Below, piece by piece: positions 33,322 through 58,334 of a stretch of DNA of 64,000 nucleotides. The translations under genes and the position numbers were made by a program. The notes under the pieces are model-generated. The model saw only the letters and a list, made by a program, of their open reading frames with translations, was not told the DNA's origin and made no database searches. Positions within the stretch are counted from its first letter, which is position 1, and each line of letters starts with the position of its first letter. Location: NCBI GenBank assembly GCA_004764695.1, contig SMSO01000032.1, positions 5,627,983 through 5,691,982 on the forward strand, written 5' to 3'. Source of the stretch: Schizochytrium sp. TIO01. Taxonomy: Eukaryota; Sar; Bigyra; Thraustochytrida; Thraustochytriidae.

Positions 33322-36300
33322 CTATAATTCGGGCATGACCACTACACGCCGATCTGCAGCAGGCAACCTTTGCGCTCGCTTGCGGTCTATGATTGCAGCA
33401 ACAGTAACTCCAGCAATTAAGACGAGAGCACCTGCAGCTGCAATTGGAATCGCAATGTATAAAACGTTGGTTGATGAAGTAGAAGATTTTTCGTCTTCTA
33501 CTAAAGAACGCTCGCTTTGGCATGCATCAAACGCTACTATAGAGGAATCGCTTTCAAAGCCATAATCTGAACAAATTCCATCAAGATTGTAGCTTGAGCG
33601 TGCACAATAGTTTGAGTTTGTCTCATTTAGCTCGGAGCAAGTCGCGGTCAATTCAACTGTTCCATACCATTGAATTGGTGGAATAAGGAGTCCTGCCATC
33701 TCAAAGTAGCTAAGAGAAAGGTAAGAATAGGTTTTTTCGCGGGTCAGATCTGGGTTGCACTGCCGCTGCAACACATAGCGAAAGAATAACAATCCACGAT
33801 CTGTATCGAAATAATACAGGTCCCCATTTCCATTGACAACTTCTGTCAAGTTAGAGGCGGCAGTAAATGGATAATCTGTAGTATCGCACCATGAGACACC
33901 AGAAGCAGATCGGTATGAAATATTGAATACAGTATCAGCTGGATAGGGCATCACAATGATCACGGTATCATCCACTTTCATTTGAGGTTTTCGAAATGTG
34001 GCACTTACTGGACTTCCGGAGTCAAACAGAAGGAGCCAACCAAGTCCGTTTGTTGCTCCACTTATGACTGCATCACCCTTAATAGGAAGACCAACTTCAG
34101 CAGGATTGCCTTCTTGACCAATGTACATGACTGACCCAACACGTGGGCAGGGCTCATCTCCGCCGTTCGTACAAATATCACCATTCTCGAACCCATCAAC
34201 AAGATCAGGGTCAAATTTGACAATGAATGATGCAACACTTCGTGATTTGCCTGTTACTGAGGACACAGCGTCACAAGCATAGTAGTCGTTTGTAAAAACA
34301 CAATTGTCATCTAATCTCCACCACGTAATGTTCTCTCGGCCTGAGCCAATAATACGCGGCCCGATGGCACCATTGTACTCCCCATTGATGGTTCCATCTG
34401 CATCAAACATGTTGGCATCAGCGCCACTCACTGTTAGGTGGCTCGACACAGTTTGGCCGAAAAGCGCACTTGTGTTGACATTGTCATAAGTGACATTGCG
34501 TACAATTTGAATAAAACCTGGCACGTATTTATCGGAATGAGTCAAAAATCGCCATACAGGAGAGTCACGCTCAACATCTCCACAATTGCGCATAATGATT
34601 CCATCAACAATGTGGTATTGATTTACATCGTAAAGTTCATAACCCACATAACTAGAAGAAAACCAGCGTTTTGAGTAATAGTCAGAACCTGACCGCACAG
34701 GCTGAAAGGATTCACTGCGGCAAACAAAAAGAAGATTATGTAAGTAATGCGTGCCTAGCACCGCAACAGGGCGCATCACGTCATGGGCCTCCAAACCGTC
34801 CATAATTCCTCGTTCACCCCAATTGTTTACACCCCAATTGCTCAGAAACACCTTTGTGTTGTTTAAAATCAATGGGCACTCGTACGAGTCATCTCCAGGG
34901 TCACACATGGTGTCTCGAGCATCGCTCTCTCGACCCGGGTTATACATGAGCAGTGACGATGAGGCGTTGACATGTTCCAAACGACCTCCGATGTAAATAC
35001 AACCTGCTCGACTCCACCAAAATCCAGAAGAATGGCACGTATTTCCATCAAACTCCAAGAATGGGCGATTGTGGGGTTGTGCCCCAGTAGGAAAGACCCA
35101 GTCTCGGTAGTCCATAATAGGCTCGGGGATCTTAACGATAGCAAAGCCCGAATATCCTCCAGAAGCAGCATTGCCATAAAAACGATTGTATGCACGTGTA
35201 ATGTAAAAGGGGCTAGCTGTCAGATCTGCAGGTTGGGTTAACGTGGAGTTTTGTATTACCGTATTCATGTATTGACTGCTACTTCTCTGAGGATAGCCAA
35301 GAAAATGAACATGCGCAGCAAGATTGTACGCGAGAGTGTTGTTCTCTTCCACGCCGTCCTCACCACTATAAAAGCAATGACCAATCGCATCATACGCAAC
35401 GTTGTCTGAAATCAACGAGTGATTTGTCCCATGAATCGTTGCACACCGGTAGAAAGTGTGATGCATACTTGAGTGCTTCAGGTACGAGTCTACACCACCT
35501 TCACCCATGTGGTGAAAGTGGAATGGATACCGAGCTAACACGTTTGTTTGACCCATGCGATACAGCTCTACACCTTCGAATCGCACGGTCGCATTTGTTC
35601 CGTTACCGAGCGTATGCCCACCGTAGCCTGTGAGATGCTTATCAATGCAAGGGTAGCTACCATACTCGCTGTTGTAGCAAATATCATCATCTGCATCAGT
35701 GCCCTCAGAAGTAATATCACCCTGGATGATGATGTTGTGCGAGAGCAGGCCAACTTCGGCTTGGTATTCCGATCCTCCGTAGTGGGTGTAATTTAATGCC
35801 TCGGTAACCGTAATACGGGAGAATTCCCCACTAATCTCTACGTTTGAGATCGTACGAACCTCGTTATGGTGCCAGTCTCTCGAGTCCTTGAGTTCGGTCG
35901 CTACTACAACGATTTGTTGGCCAGCTTGCCAGTTGACCTTGTGTTGCAAGTAGATTTGTGTGTCACTGGCAGAGGCTGTAGCAGCAAGCCGGGACCAGGT
36001 GGGATGAAAGATAGAGCCGTGTACATCAAGTACACCATTGCCCTGAGCAGTGATGCCTTTGTAGTGCTGCGAGACTGGAAATGAGGACGGCCTGGACCCA
36101 TGCAAGGTGATGGAGATATCACTGTGCAATCGGCATGTCTCAGAGCCTAATACAAGCTTGCCATCAACGCTGATGCCCGTAGTGTTGAGCATAATGTCTT
36201 CATCTGCGAACACAAGTTCTGAACTTGCAGGAATTGTAATGAGACCATAAACTGTATCGGCAGAGACTGAGCAACCACTGATGAGCACCCGTGAGTTTTC

Positions 36301-36609
36301 GGGTAAGGTTACGTCTTCGCCGTCTGCCGGGACAGCTGAGCCCCAAGTTGATGCATCTTCCCAAGGTAGGAGTTCATCAGCGTCTTCATCAAAAGGGCAG
36401 CTCGTACGTGAGTTCCAGCCATCCGGAGGGGAATTTGGTGTCACTCGAAGCTGAACGACTTCTGTAGCTTCTGCAATACCAATAAGTTCGGACGTGTCGA
36501 AGCCAGAGTCACTGGGATATGCTGGCGCAGTTGTGGTAGAGGTCACGGAACAGCAAAGTGCTGGAGTGCTGTATAGAAGGAGCAGCACACTGTAAACAAA
36601 TAGCTGCAT
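33322..36609 (-). CDS. CEMIP/TMEM2-like surface protein, paralogue 1
   Basis: 1095 residues from the ATG at 36609. I preferred it to the in-frame ATG at 36699 because it starts a proper signal peptide (MQLFVYSVLLLLYSTPALCC). Next come a G8 domain (around WEDASTWGSAVPADGEDVTL) and a long parallel-beta-helix region with the family core ARYPFHFHHMGEGG, SMHHTFYRCATIHGTN and AYDAIGHCFYSGEDGVEEN. A membrane segment (VLYIAIPIAAAGALVLIAGV) precedes a short basic tail ending VVVMPEL. CEMIP and TMEM2 are animal proteins with G8 and PbH1 domains linked to hyaluronan breakdown; here the polysaccharide target is unknown. Many N-glycosylation sequons. It is the last of three same-strand tandem copies, and its 5' half is almost identical to paralogue 3. 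Confidence 0.85.
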   Translation of the reverse strand: MQLFVYSVLLLLYSTPALCCSVTSTTTAPAYPSDSGFDTSELIGIAEATEVVQLRVTPNSPPDGWNSRTSCPFDEDADELLPWEDASTWGSAVPADGEDVTLPENSRVLISGCSVSADTVYGLITIPASSELVFADEDIMLNTTGISVDGKLVLGSETCRLHSDISITLHGSRPSSFPVSQHYKGITAQGNGVLDVHGSIFHPTWSRLAATASASDTQIYLQHKVNWQAGQQIVVVATELKDSRDWHHNEVRTISNVEISGEFSRITVTEALNYTHYGGSEYQAEVGLLSHNIIIQGDITSEGTDADDDICYNSEYGSYPCIDKHLTGYGGHTLGNGTNATVRFEGVELYRMGQTNVLARYPFHFHHMGEGGVDSYLKHSSMHHTFYRCATIHGTNHSLISDNVAYDAIGHCFYSGEDGVEENNTLAYNLAAHVHFLGYPQRSSSQYMNTVIQNSTLTQPADLTASPFYITRAYNRFYGNAASGGYSGFAIVKIPEPIMDYRDWVFPTGAQPHNRPFLEFDGNTCHSSGFWWSRAGCIYIGGRLEHVNASSSLLMYNPGRESDARDTMCDPGDDSYECPLILNNTKVFLSNWGVNNWGERGIMDGLEAHDVMRPVAVLGTHYLHNLLFVCRSESFQPVRSGSDYYSKRWFSSSYVGYELYDVNQYHIVDGIIMRNCGDVERDSPVWRFLTHSDKYVPGFIQIVRNVTYDNVNTSALFGQTVSSHLTVSGADANMFDADGTINGEYNGAIGPRIIGSGRENITWWRLDDNCVFTNDYYACDAVSSVTGKSRSVASFIVKFDPDLVDGFENGDICTNGGDEPCPRVGSVMYIGQEGNPAEVGLPIKGDAVISGATNGLGWLLLFDSGSPVSATFRKPQMKVDDTVIIVMPYPADTVFNISYRSASGVSWCDTTDYPFTAASNLTEVVNGNGDLYYFDTDRGLLFFRYVLQRQCNPDLTREKTYSYLSLSYFEMAGLLIPPIQWYGTVELTATCSELNETNSNYCARSSYNLDGICSDYGFESDSSIVAFDACQSERSLVEDEKSSTSSTNVLYIAIPIAAAGALVLIAGVTVAAIIDRKRAQRLPAADRRVVVMPEL
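35281..36546 (-). repeat. Homogenised tract shared with 45912-47177 (copy a)
   Basis: Aligns without gaps at a constant offset of 10631 bases to paralogue 3, with about ten base differences by eye. Similarity stops abruptly at 36546, just after the signal peptide, and decays through 35280-35100. Confidence 0.85.
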
Positions 36610-38642
36610 GGCCTCAACAGAGGTGGTGTAAGGACTTGTACAAGCCTTGAGCCTTTGACTGAGTTCGAGTTTTGCATTTGTGAACCTGTGTTCCTTCATG
36701 GTTTTTGTCCTTCCTTCGTCTATTAACAGGGACGATGTACTGTTACAAAGCCTTTTAATAGTGGTGGGGCCAGAAATGAAAGAAAAGACAAGAAGCAGTA
36801 CACGCTAAGAGCAAGTGCAATCCTTTTGAGTCAGATTGAAGTCATAATCGAGTAGAACAAACTTGTAAGATAGTTTTATTGTACGCACGACCAAACTGGC
36901 GCTCAATCTGAGTTTTGCGACAGCATGGTTGTCATCAAAACGTCTCCCTCAGGTAGAAAGTGGTCCGAGTCAGATCTTCTTTCCTTTCACTAAACAGTAG
37001 TAGAGGACCGCTTGCATTAAGAAAAGAAGTTTGAGTAATAAGAAAATTCAAATTAGAGTACTAATATGTACCTAAGAATTAGCTAGTAGGTAATTGCCTC
37101 CTTTTCGTTTCTTTTTTTCCTTCGTAATTTAATCTAGATATGCACACCTGCTCATACTTCTATTGAATTCAGTAAGTATTTGTCTATTAAAAGAATTAAG
37201 TAGAGGAAAACTGGCGTGCGCTCTGACTTTTTGTTTTTAGTTGTACCTGGAGGAGAGAAATAGCGACATCCTTTAAAGTTGTCAGAGAAGCTGACTTTAA
37301 CTATTCACTCCAATTGATTGGACAAAGGCACTTACTTAAGGATAATGAAAGCTCTTTTGGTGGGGAGGAACAGCAAAGGTGTGAATTGTTTTCTACAAAA
37401 TCACCGCCATTGTGCAAAAAGAATCCTGATGCGACTTATGACATAATGCAAGCAAAATTATATAGACATATATCCTTCCTACTGAAACAAAAAAACTAGG
37501 TCCGGCTGGAGATTTGAGAACCTAATGAATTCACTGTTTGAAACGACCGAGTTTGAGGCAGAAGAAAAGCTGCACAATGGCGTCAAGGTTATTCTTCAAC
37601 TTGTTTTTAGACATTTAGTCTCCTGAGTCATATAAATGTAAACTTATAGAGAGGCACAGTAAATGTTAAATGCAAAGTTTTGGATCTAGCTTTACCTCTT
37701 GATTAATCTTGAATATATAGTTAGTGTGAAATTGTCATCAACGTTCTAATAACCGCTATTCCAAAATGTTTAGACGCTACTTCGAATATTGGACGTATTC
37801 GCCTCAGAGTCCACCTCAAGGACTCATTTGTTTTTGTCTTGCTTGATTATTCTTGTCTTTAAATTTAATAATAATTATAAGAAGGAGGAAAGGATATATC
37901 ATTGGATGGTGGTAAAGTTGATCACACTCACTTTCCATGAATTGCTTCATCTTTCGGAAGGCATCAGATTAGTGAAATCATTGCATCTGTATAAAGTTAA
38001 AAATGTACTTGCTGGAGGCATAAATCATGTAGATTGAGTTTATTACAGGCTGCATAAGAAATCTAAATCATCATAACAAAGTTATCTAATTTTTCTATAT
38101 TATGAATTTAATGTCTAGAGTTTCTGCTTTTATACACTAGGCGTGGTCTTTATTAGATTTTAGCTTGTGTCGTGTTGAGCGTACAGATATAGAACATTGG
38201 CAAGTGATTGAACGATGGCTGTCGAGGAAGCATAAAGACTCCAGGACTGTATTCAGGCAATTGAGGTATTTCAGGTTCTGAATACAGGTTGAAACCTTCA
38301 AACTAGGCAGCCAAGCTAATTATTAGGCTAGGTTATACATTCTTTTCAAAATTGACTCTCTAGTCCATCGTCAAAGTTGTCATTATCATTAATAGCTAGT
38401 CCTTGAATTGGTTCGTTGCATCTAATATTGATAGCTGTTATTGTAGCGACTAAGACCTTTCTAATTGTATTCGAGACACTACCCTGTTTCCGCGCACATT
38501 CCTACTGCTTACAGGGCTACATTTTTGCATTTGCTAAAATCAAGCTTATTGAGATATGGCTAGAAATATTACCTACGTTAACAGATGTTACTTAGAAACT
38601 CGATTCCTAACTTGAACATCAAAGTCGTTATTCTATCCACAT
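36610..38642. other. Spacer between CEMIP-like paralogues 1 and 2
   Basis: About 2 kb, A/T-rich, holding the promoter of paralogue 1 and the 3' region of paralogue 2. No gene remnant between the copies was recognised. Confidence 0.55.
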
Positions 38643-41600
38643 TTAGCATTCGACACTACGGGCATCTGGCTTCACCACGACGCGTCCGCTATGCTGGCCC
38701 GGAGAGTTCAAATACATTGGTGTCCTTGCTTGGATTTGGCGACGGTGACGAAGCTTGATGAAGCCTATCGCGCCTGCAACAAGAAGCAAGAGTCCAACTA
38801 CAGCAGAAGGAGCAGCTATAACGAGTGCTTTCGAAAAAGGATTTTCGGAACTTTTCTCGGACGACCCTGTCGGAGTTAAGGAATCGACTACCGTATCAGC
38901 TGATTTGGTTCCTAAGCAGGAATCATAAGCCGCAATAGAAGAGTTTGCAGTGAAGCCATAATCTTCGCAAATGTTGGCCATGCTGTAATTTGACAGGACA
39001 CAGTATGTTGTGTCCGTTGCATTCAAATCACAATTTGCAACAAGCTGAATTTTCCCATAAGTTTGAGTGTATGGGATTCGCATGTCCTTGTATGTGTAGT
39101 AAGAGAGACCAAGATTACCATACGCTGGAGCTTGGGAAAAATCTGCATCTTCAAGGTCTTGAACAATATAACGAAAAAACAAGACGCCTCGATCTGTATC
39201 AAAAAAGTAACGATCCCCATTTCCGTTGATGACAGCATCTAGAGATGCTGCTGAAGTGAACTCGTGATAGCAGGTTTTAACTGAGATCCAATACCAACAC
39301 CAGTACGCTGCATAATAGGTTAGGTTAAATGATGTACCTGGCGGGTAAGGAATTGCAATCATAAGAAGCTCATCCTCATCTATTTGGGTCTTTTTAAACG
39401 TAATATTTGCAGGGCTTCCATTATCAAAGAGCATGAGCCAGCCAAGTCCCCCAGTCGGTCCATTGAGAGCTGTCAGACCTTCGATGGGGAGACCGACTTC
39501 TTGAGGGTTGCCTTCCTGCCCAATGTGCATAACCGATCCAACTCTGGGGCACGACTTTGATCGGTCCCCGTTGGTGCAAATCTGATATTTTGTCACCTGG
39601 GAGTCTAAGGTGGGATCAAAATTCATTTCAAAGCTGGCAATACCTCGAGATTTACCGGTGATATACGATACGGCATCGCAAATGTAGTAATCGTTGTGTT
39701 TGGTACAATTTTCATCAAGTTTCCACCACTCAATACCTTCGCGAGCTGATCCAAGAATTTGAGGTCCATTTCTGCCTGCTAGAATTGTTCCATCAGCATC
39801 ATAAATGCCTACATCGTATCCACTGATGGACAAATAGTCTTCCACCGTTTCTCCAAAAAGCATAGATTTGTCAATTTGATCATAGGTGACATTTCGAATG
39901 ATTTGCTGAAAGCCAGGCACATAACGGTCTGAATGCGTGAGGAACCGCCAGACAAAGGCATTGCTAGACTGGTTACCGCATTTGCGCATAATGATACCAT
40001 CAACAATATGTCTCTGATCAACATCATAAGTCTCGTAGCCTACATAGGCTCCAGTAAACCACCGGTACCCATAGTATCCAGTATCAGGCTGTTCCGGAAC
40101 GAAGTTCCCTGAGCGGCAGGTAAAAAGTAGATTTGTCAATGTATGCGAGCCTAGGATTGCAACTGGCCTACTGGTGTCATGAACTTCAAGTCCATCAATA
40201 AATCCACGCTGTCCCCAGTTGTTCACACCCCAGTTACTCAGGAAGACCTTGGTATTATTAAGAATAAGTGGACAATCCACTGCTTTCTTGCCAATACCAC
40301 AGAGAGTATTACGAGGGCTACTATCACGGCCTGGGTTGTACATGAGCTGTTTGGAAGTATCATTAACATGAAGCAGTTTTCCACCAATATAAATACAACT
40401 GGCCTGGTGCCACCAAAACCCAGAAGAATGACAAGAGTTGCCATTGAATTCTTGAAATGGCCGGTGTTGCGGAGAAGTACCAGAAACATAAGTAGTATTT
40501 CGATAGTCCATGATTGGTTTCGTGAGTTTTACAATAGCGAAACCGGCGTAACCTCCTGAAGCAGCATTGCCAACGTAGCGATTATAAGCTCGGGTGATGT
40601 AAAAAGGGCTCGCAGATACATCCGCTGGTTGGGTAAGATTTTCATTCTGATAAACTGTGCTCATGTATTGACTACCTGTGGTGGTCATTGGGTAACCCAA
40701 GAAATGAACATGCGCACCAAGGTTGAACGCGAGGGTATTCTTCTCTTCCACGCCATCCTCGCCACTGTAGTAGCAATGGCCAATCGCATCGTAAGCAACA
40801 TTGTTAGCGATGCGTGAGCTGTTGGTTCCATGGATAGTTGCGCAACGGTAAAAGCTGTGGTGAATGCTGGAATGCTTCAAGTATGAGTTCTTACCCCCTT
40901 CTCCCATATGGTGGAGGTGAAACGGATACCGAGCTAGAACATTTGTTTGACCCATGCGATATAGCTCCACACCCTCAAAGCGAACAACCGCGTTTGTTCC
41001 ATTGCCTAATGTGTGTCCACCAAAGCCTGTGAGATGTTTATCTTCACATGGATAACTGGGGTACCTTTCTGTGGAACATACATCATTTTCTGTATCAGAT
41101 CCTTCGGAAGACTCGTCACCTTGAATTATAACGTTATGTGAAAGCAATCCCACTTCAGCTTGGTACTCGGAACCTCCATAGTGGGTATAATCTAATGGCT
41201 CAGTCAAAGTAATTCGCGAGAAGGACCCGCTAAGTTCAACCTTTTGGATGATGCGAACTTCATTGTGGTGCCAATCTCGTGAGTCCTTAATCTCGGTGCT
41301 GATAATCACGATTTCTTGCCCAGCTTGCCAGTTTACCTTGTGTTGAAGGTAGATTTCAGTATCGCCAGATGCTACTGTGGTTGCCAAGCGGGTCCATGTT
41401 GGATGGAATATTGAGCCGTGGATATTGAGTACTCCGCTATTCTGCGCAGTGATCCCTTTATATGAAGGTGCTGCTGGGAGCTCTGACGAGGGGGGACGGA
41501 CACCATGCAGAGTGATAGAGATGCGACTATTGAGGCGACATGTTTCAGATCCCAAGACGAGCTCTCCGTAAACCGTGATACCAGTGGTATTGAAGGAAAT

Positions 41601-42011
41601 ATCTTCATCTGCGAAAATTAGCTTGGAATTTTCTGGAATTGTAATACCACCAAAGACCGTACCTGAAGAAACTGAACAGCCACTGAGCAACACACTTGCG
41701 TTCGTTGGTAGTGTTACATCCTCTCCTGCGATAGGGACCGTGTTAGATGGCCATGTAGTGGCATCTTCCCAGGCAAGGAGTTCTTCGTTGTCGTAAGGGC
41801 AGTCCAATTTACTATTCCAACCACTTGGCGGGTAATTTGGTGTTACGCGAAGCTTTATAATTTCGGTTGCTTTCTCGATGCTAATGAATCCGCTTGTGTC
41901 AAATCCAGTGTCTCCAGGATACCATGGGGCGTGCGTTGTAGAGGTTGGAATGCATGAATCCGCACAAGCATGATGCAGCAGTGCACTTACAAGAAACAGA
42001 GTTCGAAACAT
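38643..42011 (-). CDS. CEMIP/TMEM2-like surface protein, paralogue 2
   Basis: 1122 residues from the ATG at 42011, which opens a signal peptide (MFRTLFLVSALLHHACADSC). An in-frame ATG at 42068 would add 19 residues. Same architecture as its neighbours: G8 domain (WEDATTWPSNTVPIAGEDVT), beta-helix core with ARYPFHLHHMGEGG and AYDAIGHCYYSGEDGVEE, a C-terminal membrane helix (about 25 residues, ALVIAAPSAVVGLLLLVAGA) and a basic tail containing GRVVVKPD. This middle copy differs from the other two along its whole length, so the near-identity of the outer pair cannot be simple recent block duplication. The likely role is at the cell surface on an extracellular polysaccharide; the substrate is unknown. 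Confidence 0.85.
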   Translation of the reverse strand: MFRTLFLVSALLHHACADSCIPTSTTHAPWYPGDTGFDTSGFISIEKATEIIKLRVTPNYPPSGWNSKLDCPYDNEELLAWEDATTWPSNTVPIAGEDVTLPTNASVLLSGCSVSSGTVFGGITIPENSKLIFADEDISFNTTGITVYGELVLGSETCRLNSRISITLHGVRPPSSELPAAPSYKGITAQNSGVLNIHGSIFHPTWTRLATTVASGDTEIYLQHKVNWQAGQEIVIISTEIKDSRDWHHNEVRIIQKVELSGSFSRITLTEPLDYTHYGGSEYQAEVGLLSHNVIIQGDESSEGSDTENDVCSTERYPSYPCEDKHLTGFGGHTLGNGTNAVVRFEGVELYRMGQTNVLARYPFHLHHMGEGGKNSYLKHSSIHHSFYRCATIHGTNSSRIANNVAYDAIGHCYYSGEDGVEEKNTLAFNLGAHVHFLGYPMTTTGSQYMSTVYQNENLTQPADVSASPFYITRAYNRYVGNAASGGYAGFAIVKLTKPIMDYRNTTYVSGTSPQHRPFQEFNGNSCHSSGFWWHQASCIYIGGKLLHVNDTSKQLMYNPGRDSSPRNTLCGIGKKAVDCPLILNNTKVFLSNWGVNNWGQRGFIDGLEVHDTSRPVAILGSHTLTNLLFTCRSGNFVPEQPDTGYYGYRWFTGAYVGYETYDVDQRHIVDGIIMRKCGNQSSNAFVWRFLTHSDRYVPGFQQIIRNVTYDQIDKSMLFGETVEDYLSISGYDVGIYDADGTILAGRNGPQILGSAREGIEWWKLDENCTKHNDYYICDAVSYITGKSRGIASFEMNFDPTLDSQVTKYQICTNGDRSKSCPRVGSVMHIGQEGNPQEVGLPIEGLTALNGPTGGLGWLMLFDNGSPANITFKKTQIDEDELLMIAIPYPPGTSFNLTYYAAYWCWYWISVKTCYHEFTSAASLDAVINGNGDRYFFDTDRGVLFFRYIVQDLEDADFSQAPAYGNLGLSYYTYKDMRIPYTQTYGKIQLVANCDLNATDTTYCVLSNYSMANICEDYGFTANSSIAAYDSCLGTKSADTVVDSLTPTGSSEKSSENPFSKALVIAAPSAVVGLLLLVAGAIGFIKLRHRRQIQARTPMYLNSPGQHSGRVVVKPDARSVEC

Positions 42012-43215
42012 TCTTAAATCCGTGTGGACTCTCTGTCGAATCATTATTTGAGCTGCAGGTTCGAACAATGCGCTGTTAGGGAATTACATCATACCACTTT
42101 GTTGCTTTATGGTCCACACGTCTTGTCCTATAAGAAGTCCCTAGAAGATATATATATATTTATTTATTTTAATTTTAATTAAAAAAATTGATGGGCCCTA
42201 TAGAAATGAAATTAATTTCCTAGCACTTTAAAAAATAAATATTAAAAGATACTGCTGCTTAAATATTATATATAATGCTAGTCCTTTTTATTTACATCGA
42301 AGAGCTCCGCAAGCTAAACTTATACTTTTTGAATAAACGGCGTTTTTCATCGCAAGACCCAGACCACTTTACATAGAACCCGAACCTAACTCCTTCATTA
42401 ATTTGCTGTAATGAAATTCGATAATCGAAACCAACATTTTATCTGAGACAGATTGTTCAATTGTTCGCAAGATTTTGTATTTTAATTTCATTCAAAGAGA
42501 AAAAAAGTACTCATGTATATATTAATCGGTGTGCGAAGTGAACCAACCAAGTTGAAGGAGCGCACTTGAATTCAACTTGGAAGTGTGGAGTCTCCCAAAT
42601 TCTCTTGCACCCACACACAAAACAAGGTTCACTCGCTCATTTCGCTACAATGCTTACTCTGAAGGCCGAGCCCGTCTCTGTGAGTCCGGGTCTCTCAGCG
42701 TGTTCTGTCCACCAATCCAACTCAGTTCTCTGTTTTCTAAAAGGGGGCGCACGCCAACAATATCTGATAATGCAATGACGATCAATTGTATTAAAAACAT
42801 GTCAATCCTAGGAGTATTTTAGGAACTGGATACCTAAGTAGACTAATAGTAATAGTGATATGTATCACTCATTTTAGTTTGTTAATTAAAAGAATTGAAA
42901 TTTAAAAAAAATAAAATAATAATAATAAAAGGAACAAGAGAAGAAATATATTATTATTTAAACAGCCTAGTACAGGTAGCCGGTAGATAGGTATCAATCA
43001 AAGTTCAAAATTATATAATCTACACGGTAATAGTATCTCTAGACCACGCAGTCTCGGAGAAAAAGTCTCCACAATACATGGGAAAAGCGTCGACGGCCCC
43101 AAATCCTAAGTTTGGAGTGAACCGCTTTCACACGGCTTAGATACCGCCAATCGATCGGGCTCGTCAAAAAGGAGGTTCATTTTGAAATAAAGCAAACAAC
43201 CTAATATTGATCATT
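42012..43215. other. Spacer upstream of paralogue 2
   Basis: A/T-rich (42150-42260, 42890-42970), with no coding sequence recognised. It contains the promoter of paralogue 2. Confidence 0.55.
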
Positions 43216-43928: not shown

Positions 43929-46900
43929 TTATGAATAATCTGGCTTGACTACAACATTGCCTTGTTTGATAACAACGCTTCCGGATTGACTACGATGAAC
44001 TCGCCTCTTTCTACGAATAATCATAAATGCGGCCACGGCTGCTACAATGGCAAGAGCACAAACAATTGCAACTGGAATAGCAATATATAGAGTTTTAGCA
44101 GAAACTGTGCTCTCAGTGGTTGTACTTGATGAAGACCTAGAGCTTTGACAGGAATCATAGGCAACGATTGAACTATCAGAGCTAAATCCATAGTCTTCGC
44201 AAATTCCATCGATATTGTATGTGGACAACTGACAATAGTTTGTATCTGTCTCGTTGAGAGTGCAGTCAACTGTTAGCGTAATATTTCCATAATATGAAGC
44301 GGGAGGAATGCGAAATCCAGCTCGCTCATAATATGTCAGCCCAAGCTGTCCATATGCTGGAGACTCTGAGTAATCAGCTCTCGAAGAACTCTGTGGTACG
44401 TAACGGAAGAATAACAACCCACGATTAGTATCAAAGTAGTACAGGTCTCCCGTGCCATTGATAACTGCCTGGAGCGAAGCAGCAGACGAAAAATTTTGCT
44501 CGCAATAGTCGAGCGAATGCCATGGGTAGCACCAATAAGCAGACCGATAGGTCATATTAAATACTGAACCTGCCGGATACGGCATAGCAATGATAAGAAG
44601 ATCATCTTCATCAATTTGAGCTTTGCGAAACACAGCCTCAACGGGACTACCCGAATCAAAGAGAAGAAGAAAGCCAAACCCGCCAGTGGCACCCGAGATA
44701 ACTGCATTACCTTCAATTGGAAGGCCAACTTCACTAGGCTCTCCTTCTTGGCCAATTCTCATTACTGATCCTACCCGAGGGCAGTCAATGGACTTGTACG
44801 CTCCATTACTGCATATACTGACCTCTGAAAATTGCTCTACCAATGTAGGATCAAATTGAACTGTGAAACTAGCAATGCCTCTCTTATTTCCTGTAATTGG
44901 AGAAATGGCGTCGCAAGAGTAATAATCATTTATCAATGTGCAATTATCGTCAAGCTTCCAGAACTCAATGCCTTCACGACCTGAACCAACAATACGAGGG
45001 CCATTTCCATCACCACTCAACGTTCCATCCGCATCTAACAGGTTAGCAAGGTATCCGCTAACAGAGAGGTAAGTGGAGACTGTCTGACTAAAGAGAAGTG
45101 TTTTGTTGCACTGGTCATATGTAACATCATTAATGACCTCTTGAAAACCTGGTACATACTCATCAGAATGCGTCAAAAAGCGCCAAATTGGTGAGCTCCT
45201 TTCCGGGTTGCCACATTTCCGCATAATTATGCCATCAATAATATGACGCTGATCTACATCATAGGTTTCATATCCAACATAACTCGAGTAGAACCAGCGT
45301 TTGGAGTACCAGTCTGTTCCAGATTGAACGGGTTCGAAGTTTCCAGAGCGGCAGACAAAAAGAATATTGTTCAAAAAGTGCTCACCAAGAATACCTACTG
45401 GGCGTGTAGTATCGTGAACCTCCATTGAATTAAAGGTTCCTCGTCTTCCCCAATTGTTTACACCCCAGTTGCTTAGAAATACCTTCGTATTATTCATCAC
45501 AAGTGGGCACGAGTAAGAGTCATCTCCAGGGTCACACATGGTATTTCGGCCGCTTACAATCCGGCCTGGATTATATTGCAAAAGAGAACTCGAGCTGTTA
45601 ACATGTTTTAGCTGTCCACCCACATAAATGCAACCTGCTGAACTCCACCAAAATCCAGAAGAATGACACGTATTTCCATCAAACTCCAAGAATGGTCGGT
45701 TTTCAGGTAAACCTCCACTTGGGAAGTCCCAATCCCGGTAATCCATAATAGGCTCGGGCAGCTGTACTATAGCAAAGCCCGAGTATCCTCCAGAAGCAGC
45801 ATTGCCGTAGTAGCGATTGTATGCACGTGTAATGTAAAAGGGGCTAGCTGTCAGATCTGCAGGTTGGGTTAACGTGGAGTTTTGTACAACGGCAGTAATG
45901 TATTGGTTGTTACTTCTCTGAGGATAGCCAATAAAATGAACATGCGCAGCAAGATTGTACGCGAGAGTGTTGTTCTCTTCCACGCCGTCCTCACCACTAT
46001 AAAAGCAATGACCAATCGCATCATACGCAACGTTGTCTGAAATCAACGAGTGATTTGTCCCATGAATCGTTGCACACCGGTAGAAAGTGTGATGCATACT
46101 TGAGTGCTTCAGGTACGAGTCTACACCACCTTCACCCATGTGGTGAAAGTGGAATGGATACCGAGCTAACACGTTTGTTTGACCCATGCGATACAGCTCT
46201 ACACCTTCGAATCGCACGGTCGCATTTGTTCCGTTACCGAGCGTGTGCCCACCGTAGCCTGTGAGATGCTTATCAATGCAAGGGTAGCTACCATACTCGC
46301 TGTTGTAGCAAATATCATCATCTGCATCAGTGCCCTCCGAAGTAATATCACCCTGGATGATGATGTTGTGCGAGAGCAGGCCAACTTCGGCTTGGTACTC
46401 CGATCCTCCGTAGTGGGTGTAATTTAATGCCTCGGTAACCGTAATACGGGAGAAGTCCCCACTAATCTCTACGTTCGAGATCGTACGAACCTCGTTATGG
46501 TGCCAGTCTCTCGAGTCCTTGAGCTCGGTCGCTACTACAACGATTTGTTGGCCAGCTTGCCAGTTGACCTTGTGTTGCAAGTAGATTTGTGTGTCACTGG
46601 CAGAGGCTGTAGCAGCAAGCCGGGACCAGGTGGGATGAAAGATAGAGCCGTGTACATCAAGTACACCATTGCCCTGAGCAGTGATGCCTTTGTAGTGCGA
46701 CGAGACTGGAAATGAGGACGGCCTGGACCCATGCAAGGTGATGGAGATATCACTGTGCAATCGGCATGTCTCAGAGCCTAATACAAGCTTGCCATCAACG
46801 CTGATGCCCGTAGTGTTGAGCATAATGTCTTCATCTGCGAACACAAGTTCTGAACTTGCAGGAATTGTAATGAGACCATAAACTGTATCGGCAGAGACTG

Positions 46901-47270
46901 AGCAACCACTGATGAGCACCCGTGAGTTTTCGGGTAAGGTTACGTCTTCGCCGTCTGCCGGGACAGCTGAGCCCCAAGTTGATGCATCTTCCCAAGGTAG
47001 GAGTTCATCAGCGTCTTCATCAAAAGGGCAGCTCGTACGTGAGTTCCAGCCATCCGGAGGGGAATTTGGTGTCACTCGAAGCTGAACGACTTCTGTAGCT
47101 TCTGCAATACCAATAAGTTCGGACGTGTCGAAGCCAGAGTCACTGGGATATGCTGGCGCAGTTGTGGTAGAGGTCACAGTGCAGCTTGCTGCCAAGGACT
47201 TGGGTATGATCAGGCAAACGAGTGCTGCAAGCGCAAGAACGGAGGACACGGCCCTTCGTTGTCTTGCCAT
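43929..47270 (-). CDS. CEMIP/TMEM2-like surface protein, paralogue 3
   Basis: 1113 residues. A signal peptide (about 1-28, VLALAALVCLIIPKSLAAS), G8 domain, parallel-beta-helix core with HFHHMGEGG and AIGHCFYSGEDGVEEN, a C-terminal membrane helix (TLYIAIPVAIVCALAIVAAV) and a basic tail with NVVVKPDYS. Most of residues 32-450 are nearly identical to paralogue 1, while signal peptide, distal beta-helix, stalk and tail have diverged. First transcribed of the three. As for its paralogues, a surface protein binding or cutting an extracellular polysaccharide is inferred from the CEMIP/TMEM2 family only. No catalytic residues can be named with confidence. Confidence 0.85.
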   Translation of the reverse strand: MARQRRAVSSVLALAALVCLIIPKSLAASCTVTSTTTAPAYPSDSGFDTSELIGIAEATEVVQLRVTPNSPPDGWNSRTSCPFDEDADELLPWEDASTWGSAVPADGEDVTLPENSRVLISGCSVSADTVYGLITIPASSELVFADEDIMLNTTGISVDGKLVLGSETCRLHSDISITLHGSRPSSFPVSSHYKGITAQGNGVLDVHGSIFHPTWSRLAATASASDTQIYLQHKVNWQAGQQIVVVATELKDSRDWHHNEVRTISNVEISGDFSRITVTEALNYTHYGGSEYQAEVGLLSHNIIIQGDITSEGTDADDDICYNSEYGSYPCIDKHLTGYGGHTLGNGTNATVRFEGVELYRMGQTNVLARYPFHFHHMGEGGVDSYLKHSSMHHTFYRCATIHGTNHSLISDNVAYDAIGHCFYSGEDGVEENNTLAYNLAAHVHFIGYPQRSNNQYITAVVQNSTLTQPADLTASPFYITRAYNRYYGNAASGGYSGFAIVQLPEPIMDYRDWDFPSGGLPENRPFLEFDGNTCHSSGFWWSSAGCIYVGGQLKHVNSSSSLLQYNPGRIVSGRNTMCDPGDDSYSCPLVMNNTKVFLSNWGVNNWGRRGTFNSMEVHDTTRPVGILGEHFLNNILFVCRSGNFEPVQSGTDWYSKRWFYSSYVGYETYDVDQRHIIDGIIMRKCGNPERSSPIWRFLTHSDEYVPGFQEVINDVTYDQCNKTLLFSQTVSTYLSVSGYLANLLDADGTLSGDGNGPRIVGSGREGIEFWKLDDNCTLINDYYSCDAISPITGNKRGIASFTVQFDPTLVEQFSEVSICSNGAYKSIDCPRVGSVMRIGQEGEPSEVGLPIEGNAVISGATGGFGFLLLFDSGSPVEAVFRKAQIDEDDLLIIAMPYPAGSVFNMTYRSAYWCYPWHSLDYCEQNFSSAASLQAVINGTGDLYYFDTNRGLLFFRYVPQSSSRADYSESPAYGQLGLTYYERAGFRIPPASYYGNITLTVDCTLNETDTNYCQLSTYNIDGICEDYGFSSDSSIVAYDSCQSSRSSSSTTTESTVSAKTLYIAIPVAIVCALAIVAAVAAFMIIRRKRRVHRSQSGSVVIKQGNVVVKPDYS
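45912..47177 (-). repeat. Homogenised tract shared with 35281-36546 (copy b)
   Basis: Partner of the tract in paralogue 1: ungapped, about ten mismatches by eye over 1266 bases. Ends at 47177, at the end of the signal-peptide region. Confidence 0.85.
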
Positions 47271-52615: not shown

Positions 52616-55600
52616 TTATTCCAATCTGAAATTTGCGCCAACAATATCTGGTGTTAGCAAAGGCGACAATAACTCTTTCAAAACGAGTCGAAGATTTCTA
52701 TCCTGAATTTTTGCATTCCAGTACTCACGCAGACGTTCAGCGCGCAGCAACTGCCACGCCTCACGAACCTGCTCAAATGAATCAGCAAAAAATGGATCTT
52801 GCCCAAGTCTTCTTGAACAGGTTCTCACATGATCATGACATGCATCTTCATCCTGAGAACTGTAGCCAAGACACCAAGCGCAGAAGTGATGACCACAAGT
52901 CTCATTACCGCACTCTACAGCACAGCAACCGGCAAAATCGTGTACATATGCCTTACAGTTCGGACAACATGTGCTCAAGATCTTCTCTTGAATATGAAGT
53001 AAATGAAGCCGTGCGTCGCGATTCTGTTCATCAGCACGTAAAACTTGTGCTATGCGCCTTTGGATCTCCTTCTCCGCCCAAACTGCTGCTTCATTTTCTG
53101 CCTTCATCTTCGCAATCAACAAAAGATGATTCAAAGCGCTTGGTGCAAGACGGGTGATTTCTTGACCTGATATCCTTCCACTACATTCAGGTTTCATGCA
53201 TGCCATCGTTCCGTCAGCATCCACTCTTACGTTAGCAAGTGGCCGTGCCGCCGCTTCTACTGAAGATTCGATACAGTCTCTGCAAAGGAAGTCTCCCTCC
53301 TCGCAGCTCGTGCCCTCGGAAAGCAGATGCTCCTCCATGCATACTAGACATATCTTGACAGGGATCTTAGGAGCTCCAAAAGCTTCATGTTGGAGTGCTT
53401 GGCGAGCGGTTGGACGCTGGCCAGGGTCTGTTGCTGTAAGAGCATCGATAAGTTTCTGCATTGCAGCGGTTCGCTCAGTAGGATACAGCTCCTTTAAGCT
53501 TATGCCCACAGAGTACATGTCCATCGCTGTTTCAAACCTATCTACAGGCCCATTCTGCAACTCGGGGCAAATGTACCGTGGCGTGGCCTGGAGTGATGTG
53601 TAAGTTGCGATGTAGTCCGCAACCTTGATGCCGTCAAAGTCGCCGATCAATGGTGTCCCGTTGCTTGTGAGGAAAATGTTTTCTGGTTTGATGTCACAAT
53701 GCACAATGCCGTGGGTATGTAAATCCGCCACACCGATAAGCAGGCCCATAGCAAGTCGGTCGCGCGCTGCTTTGCCTTCGTTAGGATGACTCTCAATCCA
53801 CTTGGCAAGGTCACCTTGCTCGTAGAAAGGCATAATAATACAACCACGCGGTACTCCATGTGCCATGTCCACAAAAGCACCAGTGATACGGATCACGTGC
53901 TGAGACACCACTTTGCCCAGATTGGCAACTTGTCTGTAGAAGGTTTTAGATTGACTTAGATGTCCAAGCTGAAACTCTTTGAGAACCATAAGTTTATCAT
54001 CTCCATCAAATACTTTCTGGACTCTCTTGCCACCTCTGGAAGCAAGGGGCTCGCCGACAGGTTTGAAGTCCGTAACTGTGACATTCGTTAACCAAAGGTC
54101 AGAACATGCTACTTCAAAAACACCCTCTGCACTTACGTGAAGCCTTTCTAGCCAGGCTCTATCTTGCAGCAACTCTGGATAATGTTCCTGCGCGTGTTGC
54201 AGAGTCTCAGCAAGCTTATGACGAAAAGCTTTGCTAAGGTCGATAGGGTTGCCTTGAGAGAGAATGAGCTCTTGTTTCTTGATACGATTTCTAAAATATG
54301 CTCGCTCTTCCTCATCCAAGTCCTCTATTTCAAGTTCTTCTTTGGCTCTCTTCAAAATTTCTGTGGCTTTCCTCGACTTGTCAAGTTTCTGGAATAATGC
54401 TTCAACATCTGAGACAGAAGGTTCTTTCAAACCCAGTGCTGCATAGTCATACAGCTCAGAGAGCTTTTCTGGTGTGCACTTGCTCGTGTCATTCAATGAA
54501 GCACATTCAGTGTATCCTTCAAATCGAGCGAATGTTGAACTTATCGCGCAAAGTATTTCCCACAATTGGGTACGAAGTGTATCTCCTTGTAGAACTTCGA
54601 TCTCTTGCTTGAGAGCACTCTCAAGTTCAGACAATTCTGGTTCTAGCTCCATGGCCTGCTCAGGTGTCCTCAGGGCAACCGATAATCCATCACCAAGTTC
54701 TAGCTCAGACAATCGAGAGATCACGCGCTTTACAGCTTGTTGGCTTCGTTCACCAATGTTGTTGTGTTGGCCTTCTCCACTCCTCTTGTACCCTTCCACG
54801 CATTGGACAGCCTGAATAACGAGTTCTTGGCAGTGTTTGAAGTCATCTGTGCTGGTCTCTTCATCGACTGGTGCAAGGTCGATCTTTAGATCGTTTACCA
54901 AACTTTCAAGTCTCACTTTGAATTCTCGCACTGCACTCTCATCACTTTCGCAAAGGTTGGCGCGAACCCATGGGTACACGACCTGCAAAAGTGAGTGCAG
55001 GTGCCTCCGTTCGGTGTTCCGCTTTTCGATGAGGCTGGGCAAGCCATTTGCAGAGCTTGCACGAATCTGGTCTTGTAGCGTGTCAAGACTCTCTTTGGAG
55101 TTTTTGATGTCAGCAGAAACCTGTCGCAACTTCACTTGGCCAAAGTAGCCCTGGATCGCCGATCCTACGAATTCCTCAAGCAAGGCAATCCCAGTCTGCA
55201 GGGAGTTCCCTCTGACCCCGCCTCGGTCCGCGCGCAAGTCCGAGACTTTCTTGGCAAGCTGCACCACATCAGCGAAACTCACGCTCGCTCCATCCGCCCG
55301 TTCTCTGAGACGAACAAGAAGACGTAAGCAAACGAGCAAAATGATGTTGAACCAGCAACAAAAGCAGAAGCAAAAGTTAGGATACCCTCTATCTCAATAA
55401 CTCAATTCGTGGAATGACTGATTACACGATCCCAAACAAAGATTAACCGAATGAACTTACCCAGATCCATCCAAAGTAGCAAGCCCGGTGCCATCAATGC
55501 CGTCTTGCTCGTTCTTGGGCTCTGCAGAAGGCTCGCTTTCTGCCGACTCTATGGAAGCATAGGAATCGAGCTCTGACGAGAAATCTGCAATGTCCTCTCC

Positions 55601-58334
55601 AGGAGAACACATTTCGAACAATTGTTTTGGGGTCAAAGACAAATTCCAATTATAGAAACTGTGGCGTTTTGCAAACGAATGAACGAAAGAAAGAGAATAT
55701 AAGTGCTGGTTAGAAAAACGATGAACGCATCTAAAGACAGCCTCGAAAGTCCATGTTAAGACATGGAGAGAACCAGCGAAGGCAAGGCTCTGCACAAGCT
55801 GGGAAGAGCAGCAGAGGGAACGGAACTTACTAGATTTTAACAGAAGGACATGCTTTGTGCAGAGACTTTGCGACGGCCTTTGCGCCCTCATCGCCAATGT
55901 TGTTCTCAGAAAGACTGTGAGTATAAATGAATAAGTTTGTTTTTTCATTCGTTGTCAGGAAAGACAGGTCCAGTCAGTTGATCCTGTTTTGTTTTGTATT
56001 TCCTCACAATAAAAAGCAATCAGCTCTTCTTCTTCTTCTTCTTCTGCTGCTGCTGCTGCTGCGTATCAAATTATATAGATTTCGTTCTTCTCTTTGTAAA
56101 AAAGAAAAGACTTCTTTGCCTTTCTTTGCGTACCCAACTACGTAAACTACTTAGGTAGTGTACCAGCAGTACTACAAACACCAAGCACTCAAAAGAAAGA
56201 AAGAAAAAGCTTCGTCCTGACTATAACGATAGCTTTCCCTCGTGGATGATTCCACAAACGTACTGTAAAGTTTGAAGGTTCTTGCATCCCTTGAGTGCCT
56301 TTGCGACGGCCTTTGCGCCCTCATCGCCAATGTTGTTCTCAGAAAGACTGTGAGTATAAATGAATAAGTTTGTTTTGTTCATTCGTTGTCAGGAAAGACA
56401 GGTCCAGTCAGTTGATCCTGTTTTGTTTTGTATTTCCTCACAATAAAAAGCAATCAGCTCTTCTTCTTCTTCTTCTTCTGCTGCTGCTGCTGCGTATCAA
56501 ATTATATAGATTTCGTTCTTCTCTTTGTAAAAAAAAAAAAAGACTTCTTTGCCTTTCTTTGCGTACCCAACTACGTAAACTACTTAGGTAGTGTACCAGC
56601 AGTACTACAAACACCAAGCACTAAAAAGAAAGAAAGAAAAAGCTTCGTCCTGACTATTACGATAGCTTTCCCTCGTGGATGATTCCACAAACGTACTACA
56701 ATTGTTGAAGGTTCTTGCATTCCTCGAGTGCCTTTGCGACGGCCTTTGCGCCCTCTGAGCCAATGTTGTTCCCCCAAAGACTATGAGTAGTATAAATGAA
56801 TAAGTTTGTTTTGTTCATTCGTTGTCAGGAAAGACAGGTCCAGTCAGTTGATCCTGTTTTGTTTTCTTTTTCCTCACAATAAAAAGCAATCAGCTCTTCT
56901 TCTTCTTCTTCTGCTGCTGCTGCTGCTGCCTATCAAATTGTATAGATTTCCTTCTTCTCTTTGTAAAAAAAAAGAAAGACTTCTTTGCCTTTCTTTGCGT
57001 ACCCAACTACGTAAACTACTTAGGTAGTGTACCAGCAGTACTACAAACACCAAGCACTAAAAAGAAAGAAAGAAAAAGCTTCGTCCTGACTATTACGATA
57101 GCTTTCCCTCGTGGATGATTCCACAAACGTACACTAAAGTTTGAAGGTTCTTGCATCCCTCGAGTGCCTTTGCGACGGCCTTTGCGCCCTCATCGCCAAT
57201 GTTGTTCTCAGAAAGACTGTGAGTATAAATGAATAAGTTTGTTTTGTTCATTCGTTGTCAGGAAAGACAGGTCCAGTCAGTTGATCCTGTTTTGTTTTGT
57301 ATTTCTTCACAATAAAAAGCAATCAGCTCTTCTTCTGCTGCTGCTGCTGCCTATCAAATTATATAGATTTCGTTCTTCTCTTTGTAAAAAAGAAAAGACT
57401 TCTTTGCCTTTCTTTGCGTACCCAACTACGTAAACTACTTAGGTAGTGTACCAGCAGTACTACAAACACCAAGCACTAAAAAGAAAGAAAGAAAGAAAAA
57501 GCTTGGTCCTGCCTATTACGATAGCTTTCCCTCGTGGATGATTCCACAAACGTACTGTAAAGTTTGAAGGTTCTTGCATCCCTCGAGTGCCTTTGCGACG
57601 GCCTTTGCGCCCTCTGAGCCAATGTTGTTCCCAGAAAGACTGTGAGTATAAATGAATAAGTTTGTTTTGTTCATTCGTTGTCAGGAAAGACAGGTCCAGT
57701 CAGTTGATCCTGTTTTGTTTTGTATTTCCTCACAATAAAAAGCAATCAGCTCTTCTTCTGCTGCTGCTGCTGCCTATCAAATGATATAGATTTCCTTTTG
57801 CCCTTCCTTCTTCTCGTTCTAGAAAAAAGAAGAAAAGAGTTCTTTGCCTTTCTAAAGTACCCAGTCTACGTAAACTACGTAGGTAGTGTACCAGCAGTGC
57901 TTTCGTTTTGATTCCTTTCCCCTACTACAAACACCAACCACTCATAAGAAAGAAAGAAAAAGGTTGGTCCTGCATATTACGATAGCTTTCCCTCGTGGAT
58001 GATTTCACAAACGTACTCTAAAGTTTGAAGGTTCTTGCATCCCTCGAGTGCCTTTGCGACAGCCTTTGCGCCCTCATCGCCAATGTTGTGCCCACCAAGA
58101 CTGTGTTTGTTTGTTTGTTTGTTTGTGAACAAGTGAGAGTAAGTATATGCCATTTCCAACTTCTTCATTAGTGCCACTACTAGTTCAAAACTATTCTTCT
58201 TCTACAAAGCTGACTGCTGCAACACATCGACGACGCGATGCCTCCTTCTTCTTTCTCCTCCTTTCTCCATCGTGCACTTACTATATCTCCGTCGTATCTC
58301 CTTTGATGTCCTTAATTCTACGTGCCGTAGTCAT
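52616..58334 (-). CDS. LRR - protein kinase - RBR-like E3 ligase fusion (9 exons)
   Basis: Exons in transcript order: 58334-58282, 58100-58017, 57639-57556, 57216-57133, 56780-56697, 56347-56264, 55914-55831, 55658-55461, 55304-52616. All introns are GT-AG, all junctions phase 2, and the total is 3444 nt (1147 aa). Exon 1 gives 17 residues. Six 84-nt exons each give one LRR of the form L-x-x-NNIG-x-EGAKAVAKAL-x-x-C-x-x-L. Exon 8 is an acidic Ser/Glu linker. Exon 9 has a coiled region, then a kinase: Lys694 (VLKEF), catalytic loop HCDIKPEN with Asp789, and D807-F-D-G in place of DFG. From Cys904 comes a RING1-like zinc site, then a helical stretch, then an Rcat/RING2-like module (CCPNCKAYVHDFAGCCAVEC and CGHHFCAWC). 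This predicts sensing by the LRR and output by phosphorylation or ubiquitin transfer. The first exon is the least certain. Confidence 0.75.
55831..58100 (-). repeat. Tandem array of LRR exon-intron units
   Basis: Six 84-nt LRR exons start at 58100, 57639, 57216, 56780, 56347 and 55914, giving periods of 461, 423, 436, 433 and 433 bases. The introns between them are near-copies: each carries a CTT/CTG trinucleotide run whose length varies, a GGAAAGACAGGTCCAGTCAG segment, a TTAGGTAGTGTACCAGCAGT segment and an AAAGAAAGAAAG run (all as read on the plus strand). The most upstream intron (57640-58016) is the most diverged. Confidence 0.92.

Follow-up and report, generated by a model that had tools for sequence, protein, structure and literature searches.

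The minus-strand locus running from position 58334 to 52616 of the window, as we call the 64,000-nucleotide stretch of Schizochytrium sp. TIO01 DNA analyzed here, raises the question of whether leucine-rich repeats (LRRs), a protein kinase, and a ubiquitin ligase-like zinc module are joined in one protein and, if so, what such a protein would do. Joined from the genomic sequence, nine exons yield a single frame of 1,147 amino acids, and all eight introns are of the GT-AG type and in phase 2. Exon 1 of the gene model (58282..58334, 53 nt, MTTARRIKDIKGDTTEI) provides the start codon and has similar exons in relatives. It is followed by six LRR exons (58017..58100, 57556..57639, 57133..57216, 56697..56780, 56264..56347, and 55831..55914), each of exactly 84 nt and encoding one 28-residue LRR, which we take to be of the ribonuclease inhibitor-like type. 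The first of the six is a first-type exon with the acceptor caaacacag; the terminal one ends in SLHKACPSVKI and has the donor GTAAGT, in contrast to GTACGT at the internal LRR exons. An exon and its intron form the unit of a tandem array (55866..58105; 5.1 copies, 90% matches) that repeats about every 433 bp. Exon 8 (55461..55658) encodes a linker that is acidic by composition, as judged by eye, and exon 9 (52616..55304) encodes a long region that matches no Pfam family, the kinase, the zinc module, and the stop codon. The kinase domain, as delimited by Pfam (53483..54022), contains the motif HCDIKPEN (53678-53701), and the zinc module comprises a RING1-like cluster (53183..53350) and an Rcat-like cluster (52817..52966) with an invariant cysteine at the catalytic position (52925-52927). 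All of these features lie on the minus strand.

The Pfam matches are strong for both the N-terminal part (LRR_6, E = 4e-41) and the kinase in exon 9 (Pkinase, E = 8e-27), and no ROC-COR match was listed at E values up to 10 for exon 9 and the N-terminal 331 residues. Thus, the nine phase-compatible exons, the six LRRs, the kinase with HCDIKPEN, and the zinc module named in the sequence-only reading were all recovered in the 1,147-residue frame. By comparison of the genomic loci of the family described below, the gene is confirmed as real rather than a chance arrangement, with exon joining as predicted splicing, and the same comparison backs the claim that LRRs, kinase, and RING1/Rcat-like module belong to one putative protein. 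No signal peptide was seen by eye in the N terminus (MTTARRIKDIKG). Hydropathy indicates no membrane span (maximum over 19 residues, 1.22), and the protein is therefore probably intracellular.

The gene is one of many. A search with exon 9 of the 64.06-Mb genome (37 contigs) gave 51 matching pieces scored among 278 candidates, which merge into at least 44 places, fragments counted. The kinase and zinc module are open in 25 of the 30 loci fetched; the remaining five (L012, L015, L018, L022, and L023) are cut or contain stops, so that several copies of the family are broken. Start exons, defined by an ATG and a GT donor, were present in 13 of 15 gene stretches, a set that counts the window gene and takes in one near-copy pair (L015 and L002), and were not found in the other two (L007 and L025). 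When the genome was searched with one LRR, 150 matches were scored among 619 candidates, and 144 of these lie on the same strand as, and no more than 16 kb upstream of, a kinase/zinc exon of the family. Among the matches listed, LRR exons occur upstream at 29 of the 44 places, with 15 kinase places having none, and the number of scored exons per array ranges from 1 to at least 18. Four of the six remaining matches form an array on contig C5, followed by unread sequence. This array was considered as a reservoir consisting of LRRs only, an idea that was dropped because the sequence beyond its last exon soon reads N.

These counts bear on whether the LRR arrays and the kinase/zinc exon might be adjacent but separate genes, as the long introns and the repetitive array could lead one to think. 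Such an arrangement is very improbable: intron phases match throughout the gene model, a terminal-type LRR exon with the GTAAGT donor precedes exon 9 in 18 of the 30 fetched loci in a strict 84-nt scan, and 144 of the 150 scored LRR matches lie upstream of a family kinase exon on its own strand. The arrays vary in makeup as well as in length. For example, a first-type exon lies within the array of L004, and the arrays of L002 and L003 are apparently out of register by one unit. Near-copies of family members are found across contigs (L002, L003, and L015; L016 and L017; 97.8 to 99.9% identity), which points to recent segmental duplication or to assembly ends left uncollapsed.

The larger finding, absent from the sequence-only reading, is that the LRR arrays are hypervariable at particular codons. 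The analysis of variation used 54 internal LRR exons of regular length, which were taken from 11 stretches; terminal and irregular exons, L007, L008, L025, and the near-copy L015 were left out. All 54 of the encoded 28-mer peptides are distinct. Diversity peaks at codons 2, 3, 5, 25, 26, and 28, around the L-x-L-x-x-N-x motif, which by LRR geometry we take to form the concave face of the repeat. This placement agrees with the account in PMC11378527. All six positions rank within the top eight of the 28 codons by diversity (hypergeometric P = 7e-5, in a test run after the pattern had been seen); the other two are codon 8, which is roughly two-state (Ser or Asp), and codon 27, which encodes Leu in 50 of the 54 exons. 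The Nei-Gojobori dN/dS ratio is 1.73 at codons 2, 3, 5, 25, and 26 versus 0.42 elsewhere, the former value being unreliable because the variable codons are saturated.

The contrast with the surrounding sequence is sharp. Averaged over the 1,431 pairs of exons, p-distances reach 0.635 at codons 2 and 3 and 0.531 at codons 26 and 28, whereas framework codons 9 to 23 give 0.020, the 60 nt before the exon 0.087, and the intron after it 0.080. Moreover, the distance at codons 2 and 3 scarcely depends on that of the flanks: it is 0.614 at a mean flank distance of 1.4% and 0.642 at 7.0%, and stays between 0.57 and 0.67 across all flank-distance bins with more than one pair, from mean flanks of 1.4% to 30%. 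Codons 2 and 3 are identical in 24 of the 1,431 pairs, including the closest one (flank distance of 0, in L002). In L006, neighboring units match letter for letter over the 60-nt upstream flanks and differ by 0.6% in framework and downstream intron, yet at codons 2 and 3 they carry the unrelated letters CACAAC, TCTTAT, and CGTAGC. L025 and L026 differ at 120 of 1,712 aligned columns, gaps counted, and they have no base in common at one contact codon. Variation at the contact codons is thus decoupled from the sequence around them.

Part of this contrast could be overstated if the likeness of introns and framework were an artifact of assembly or polishing in repeats. Some copies do look like contig ends that overlap or are allelic (L002 and L015 are 99.87% identical over 4,510 aligned bp, and L002 and L003 are 98.4% identical), and the end of contig C35, inspected by eye, resembles an LRR intron. 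An artifact of this kind would flatten the variable codons too, so that the persistence of distances of 0.57 to 0.67 at codons 2 and 3 over flank distances from 1.4% to 30% counts against it, and we consider it decidedly improbable.

Homogeneity of the introns extends to comparisons between genes. Among seven genes, the LRR introns differ less than the fourfold sites of exon 9 in all 21 pairs, and when L009 is compared with these seven, the same holds for 7 of 7 pairs. Conversely, in every pair that involves L013 or L016 (17 of 17, and 17 of 45 overall), the LRR introns differ more than the fourfold sites. The introns therefore look homogenized in eight of the ten genes compared, and the likeness holds among most core genes, while the opposite outcome for L013 and L016 implies that homogenization does not reach the whole family. 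Such likeness is what an exchange of units between arrays at different loci would produce, and we infer exchange as the cause; constraint on the introns is another possible cause.

How the contact codons came to vary so widely can be explained in two ways, both of which fit the data: long-term diversifying selection on these codons combined with gene conversion and unequal exchange that keep the rest alike, or a codon-focused process. We consider the former more likely. A dedicated process, such as targeted mutation or exchange of very short cassettes, that rewrites the contact codons and leaves introns and framework untouched appears improbable, although the L006 units described above and the insertions or stop located at the hypervariable codons of a few exons speak for it; if it did exist, the family would amount to an adaptive-like repertoire of receptors coupled to a kinase and to a ubiquitin ligase-like module. 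Exchange within exons was tested for with low power, and one supporting 6-mer pair was obtained. Mutagenesis templated at adenines, of the kind associated with diversity-generating retroelements, is unsupported because the third positions of both codons 2 and 3 show each of the four bases.

Irregular LRR exons exist beside those of fixed length in the arrays of the family. Some LRR exons of L002, L003, L006, and the array on C5 (L042) have G/T-rich insertions of 12 to 15 nt or a stop codon at hypervariable codons. The in-frame insertions, of 12 and 15 nt, were found in two arrays, and the relative L003 has 13 nt. Untemplated addition was considered as their origin, but the 13 nt in L003 break the frame, so that slippage during decay of the exon is an equally likely origin.

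What the repeats might signal to depends on exon 9. In all 25 open members, the VAIK-type lysine (VLK), HCDIKPxN, and DFDG are kept; by these motifs, the kinase is of the non-RD kind, with all of the predicted catalytic residues present. The PDB matches shown for the kinase span many kinase families. Plant LRR receptor kinases and LRRK/ROCO proteins likewise place an LRR sensor and a kinase output in one chain, and non-RD kinases, in which the Arg of HRD is replaced, are linked to plant immunity. The Schizochytrium family resembles the plant LRR kinases in both respects, LRRs and kinase in one chain and replacement of the HRD Arg, but differs from plant LRR receptor-like kinases in lacking a signal peptide by eye and a membrane span by hydropathy. 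It differs from LRRK/ROCO proteins in having no ROC-COR listed by Pfam and in its C-terminal zinc module.

The zinc module is the part of the sequence-only reading that needed revision. An RBR-like E3 ligase had been proposed, and this is supported only in part: some resemblance to RING1 and Rcat exists and the cysteine is invariant, but no IBR (BRcat) is present and the catalytic His and Glu are replaced. In the window protein, the two clusters have nonsignificant Pfam matches (IBR_2, E = 2.2; zf-C3HC4_4, E = 5.8); among 17 members searched at E values up to 10, zf-RING_2 was matched in 8 (best E = 0.0012) and IBR_2 in 6 (best E = 0.0093). The first cluster has the eight-ligand spacing C-x2-C-x11-C-x3-[H/D]-x2-C-x2-C-x24-C-x4-C, which is like that of parkin RING1, with the His position occupied by Asp in 11 of 17 members and by His in 6. 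Over 25 members, seven of its eight ligands are invariant, as are all ligands of the Rcat-like cluster. The matches of the RING1-like cluster are weak: RNF4, whose two copies (E = 1.4 and 1.5) together reach an E value of 0.0082, is followed by a nitrile hydratase at 0.035, which is surely due to chance, and by TRIM34 at 0.073. A spacer of 72 residues runs from Cys 737, at the end of the RING1-like cluster, to Cys 810, at the start of the Rcat-like cluster, and neither a BRcat/IBR nor an invariant Cys was found in it in the 25 members.

For the Rcat-like cluster, the sequence comparisons point both ways. Its profile aligns without gaps to the Rcat of HHARI (E = 0.0012), and hhalign against RBR proteins of the same genome places it on Rcat with a probability of 53 to 55%. 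Against this, the same profile ranks RNF4 first (4.7e-6 summed over two RINGs, each 0.03 and gapped), it matches UBE3A zinc fingers from E = 0.007 upward, and in parkin chain 2m48 (summed E = 0.0012) it hits both the Rcat stretch (0.14) and the IBR stretch (1.2). All 25 open members keep the cysteine at the catalytic position. In the register given by the HHARI alignment, the residue two after this Cys is Ala in all 17 aligned members, and the position of the RBR Glu is occupied by His in 11 of 17 and by Glu in none.

According to PMC3940038, substitution of any residue of the catalytic triad inactivates RBR ligases in vitro, and the BRcat fold lacks a cysteine at the catalytic position. The module resembles parkin and HHARI in its RING1-like spacing and in an Rcat-like cluster with a cysteine at that position, but differs in having no BRcat/IBR, in the absence of the catalytic His and Glu, and in its fusion to LRRs and a kinase. 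Because there is no IBR and the RBR catalytic His and Glu are absent, the predicted module falls outside the definition of an RBR ligase; it may be a RING-type module that recruits an E2. A further reading, that the module is an E3 with a RING alone, or else a structural element or pseudo-ligase, and that the kinase is perhaps the sole enzymatic output, has a real chance of being correct, if somewhat short of even. The missing IBR between the clusters, the residues found at the His and Glu positions together with the inactivating effect of triad substitutions (PMC3940038), and the weak RING1 similarity all speak for it, whereas the gap-free HHARI Rcat match and the invariant catalytic-position Cys, a residue absent from the BRcat fold, speak against it. 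A single-sequence structure model of kinase and zinc module was unfit for a fold search (mean pLDDT, 33.6), and no relatives of the module were confirmed in viral contigs and prokaryote genomes. Two RBR-type open frames of the same genome (L045 and L046), unlike the module of the family, have IBR matches and the Rcat motif GCNHM; of these, only L046 shows a complete RING1.

Taken together, the family is judged fairly probable to be a germline-diversified recognition repertoire, akin to families of immune receptors, of probably intracellular sensors that relay to a kinase and a RING-type module. The sensor would be a chain of 28-residue LRRs, each encoded by one symmetric phase-2 exon, and in-frame gain, loss, and recombination of repeats would follow from exchange between arrays and loci. 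Such exchange would also keep the framework, and the introns of most genes, alike while the concave contact residues are hypervariable. Binding by the LRRs would be relayed to the non-RD kinase and to the RING-type zinc module, the latter possibly recruiting an E2, and the repertoire as a whole would recognize non-self or variable partners. Ligand binding, kinase and E3 activities, and a role in immunity or allorecognition are all parts of this proposal that we infer. The earlier suggestion of an innate-immunity-like receptor thus gains indirect support from the multigene family, the exon-modular arrays, and the concave hypervariability, with the immune role itself conjectural. The same signatures of multiple genes and hypervariable sites also fit a repertoire for self/non-self or mating-type recognition, or for variable host partners, in place of microbial defense. 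Nothing favors allorecognition over defense, however, and the absence of a membrane span by hydropathy fits an intracellular target; this alternative is possible, though rather unlikely.

Repertoires built from LRR exons have precedents, as described in reports on brown algae (PMC11378527) and ciliates (PMC6564038). The LRR-ROCO genes of brown algae encode one LRR per exon of constant length, in phase 2 and in tandem arrays, with exon shuffling and positive selection at four sites of the concave side (Teng et al. 2024, PMC11378527, where Zambounis et al. 2012 is cited). Fixed-length symmetric phase-2 exons, one per LRR, and tandem arrays of variable number are common to those genes and the Schizochytrium family, as is diversity on the concave face, the geometry here being assumed. 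The brown algal genes have 72-bp exons, 23-residue LRRs, and a ROC-COR output (PMC11378527), whereas the Schizochytrium family has 84-nt exons, 28-residue LRRs, and a kinase and zinc module with no ROC-COR by Pfam. According to PMC6564038, the LRR genes of Tetrahymena show fixed-length exons with a strong phase 2 bias, young arrays with similar units and longer introns, for which unequal crossing over was proposed, and enrichment in subtelomeric and pericentromeric regions. The fixed-length phase-2 logic and the young, homogeneous arrays are shared with the family described here, but Tetrahymena has 90-bp exons and thousands of genes, most of them reported to be under purifying selection (PMC6564038), compared with at least 44 places, a single kinase/zinc output, and hypervariable concave codons in Schizochytrium. 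The exon logic is thus the same in all three groups, which differ in the length of the exons and in the output domains.

Searches of open-license literature turned up no paper describing a protein with LRRs, a kinase, and a RING/Rcat module, which is weak evidence of absence, and LRRs are not mentioned in the available portion of PMC12221091. A further symmetric phase-2 case, with another LRR length and another output, would show that such repertoires recur in protists and that the logic by which they are built is not tied to one signaling domain. Furthermore, with contact codons nearly saturated while their flanks are almost identical, the origin of the diversity becomes directly testable.

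Finally, the position of the family in the genome was compared with contig ends. Nine of 42 places lie within 50 kb of a contig end, a zone that accounts for 2.1% of the sequence of the 12 contigs of known length considered (nominal P = 2e-7, with paralogues counted as independent). This enrichment is suggestive only, because the paralogues are not independent and only two ends are telomere-like. Eight contig ends were read: a TTAGG-type repeat is present at two, N at three, and neither of these in the letters examined at the other three; a TTAGGG 24-mer has no match in the genome. The telomere-like five-base repeat lies at L050 (start of contig C32) and L054 (end of contig C33). Elsewhere in the window, three related open frames of 1,113 to 1,141 amino acids lie in tandem at 33322-36699, 38643-42068, and 43929-47270, on the same minus strand as the LRR-kinase-zinc gene, each with a hydrophobic stretch, as judged by eye, near both ends.
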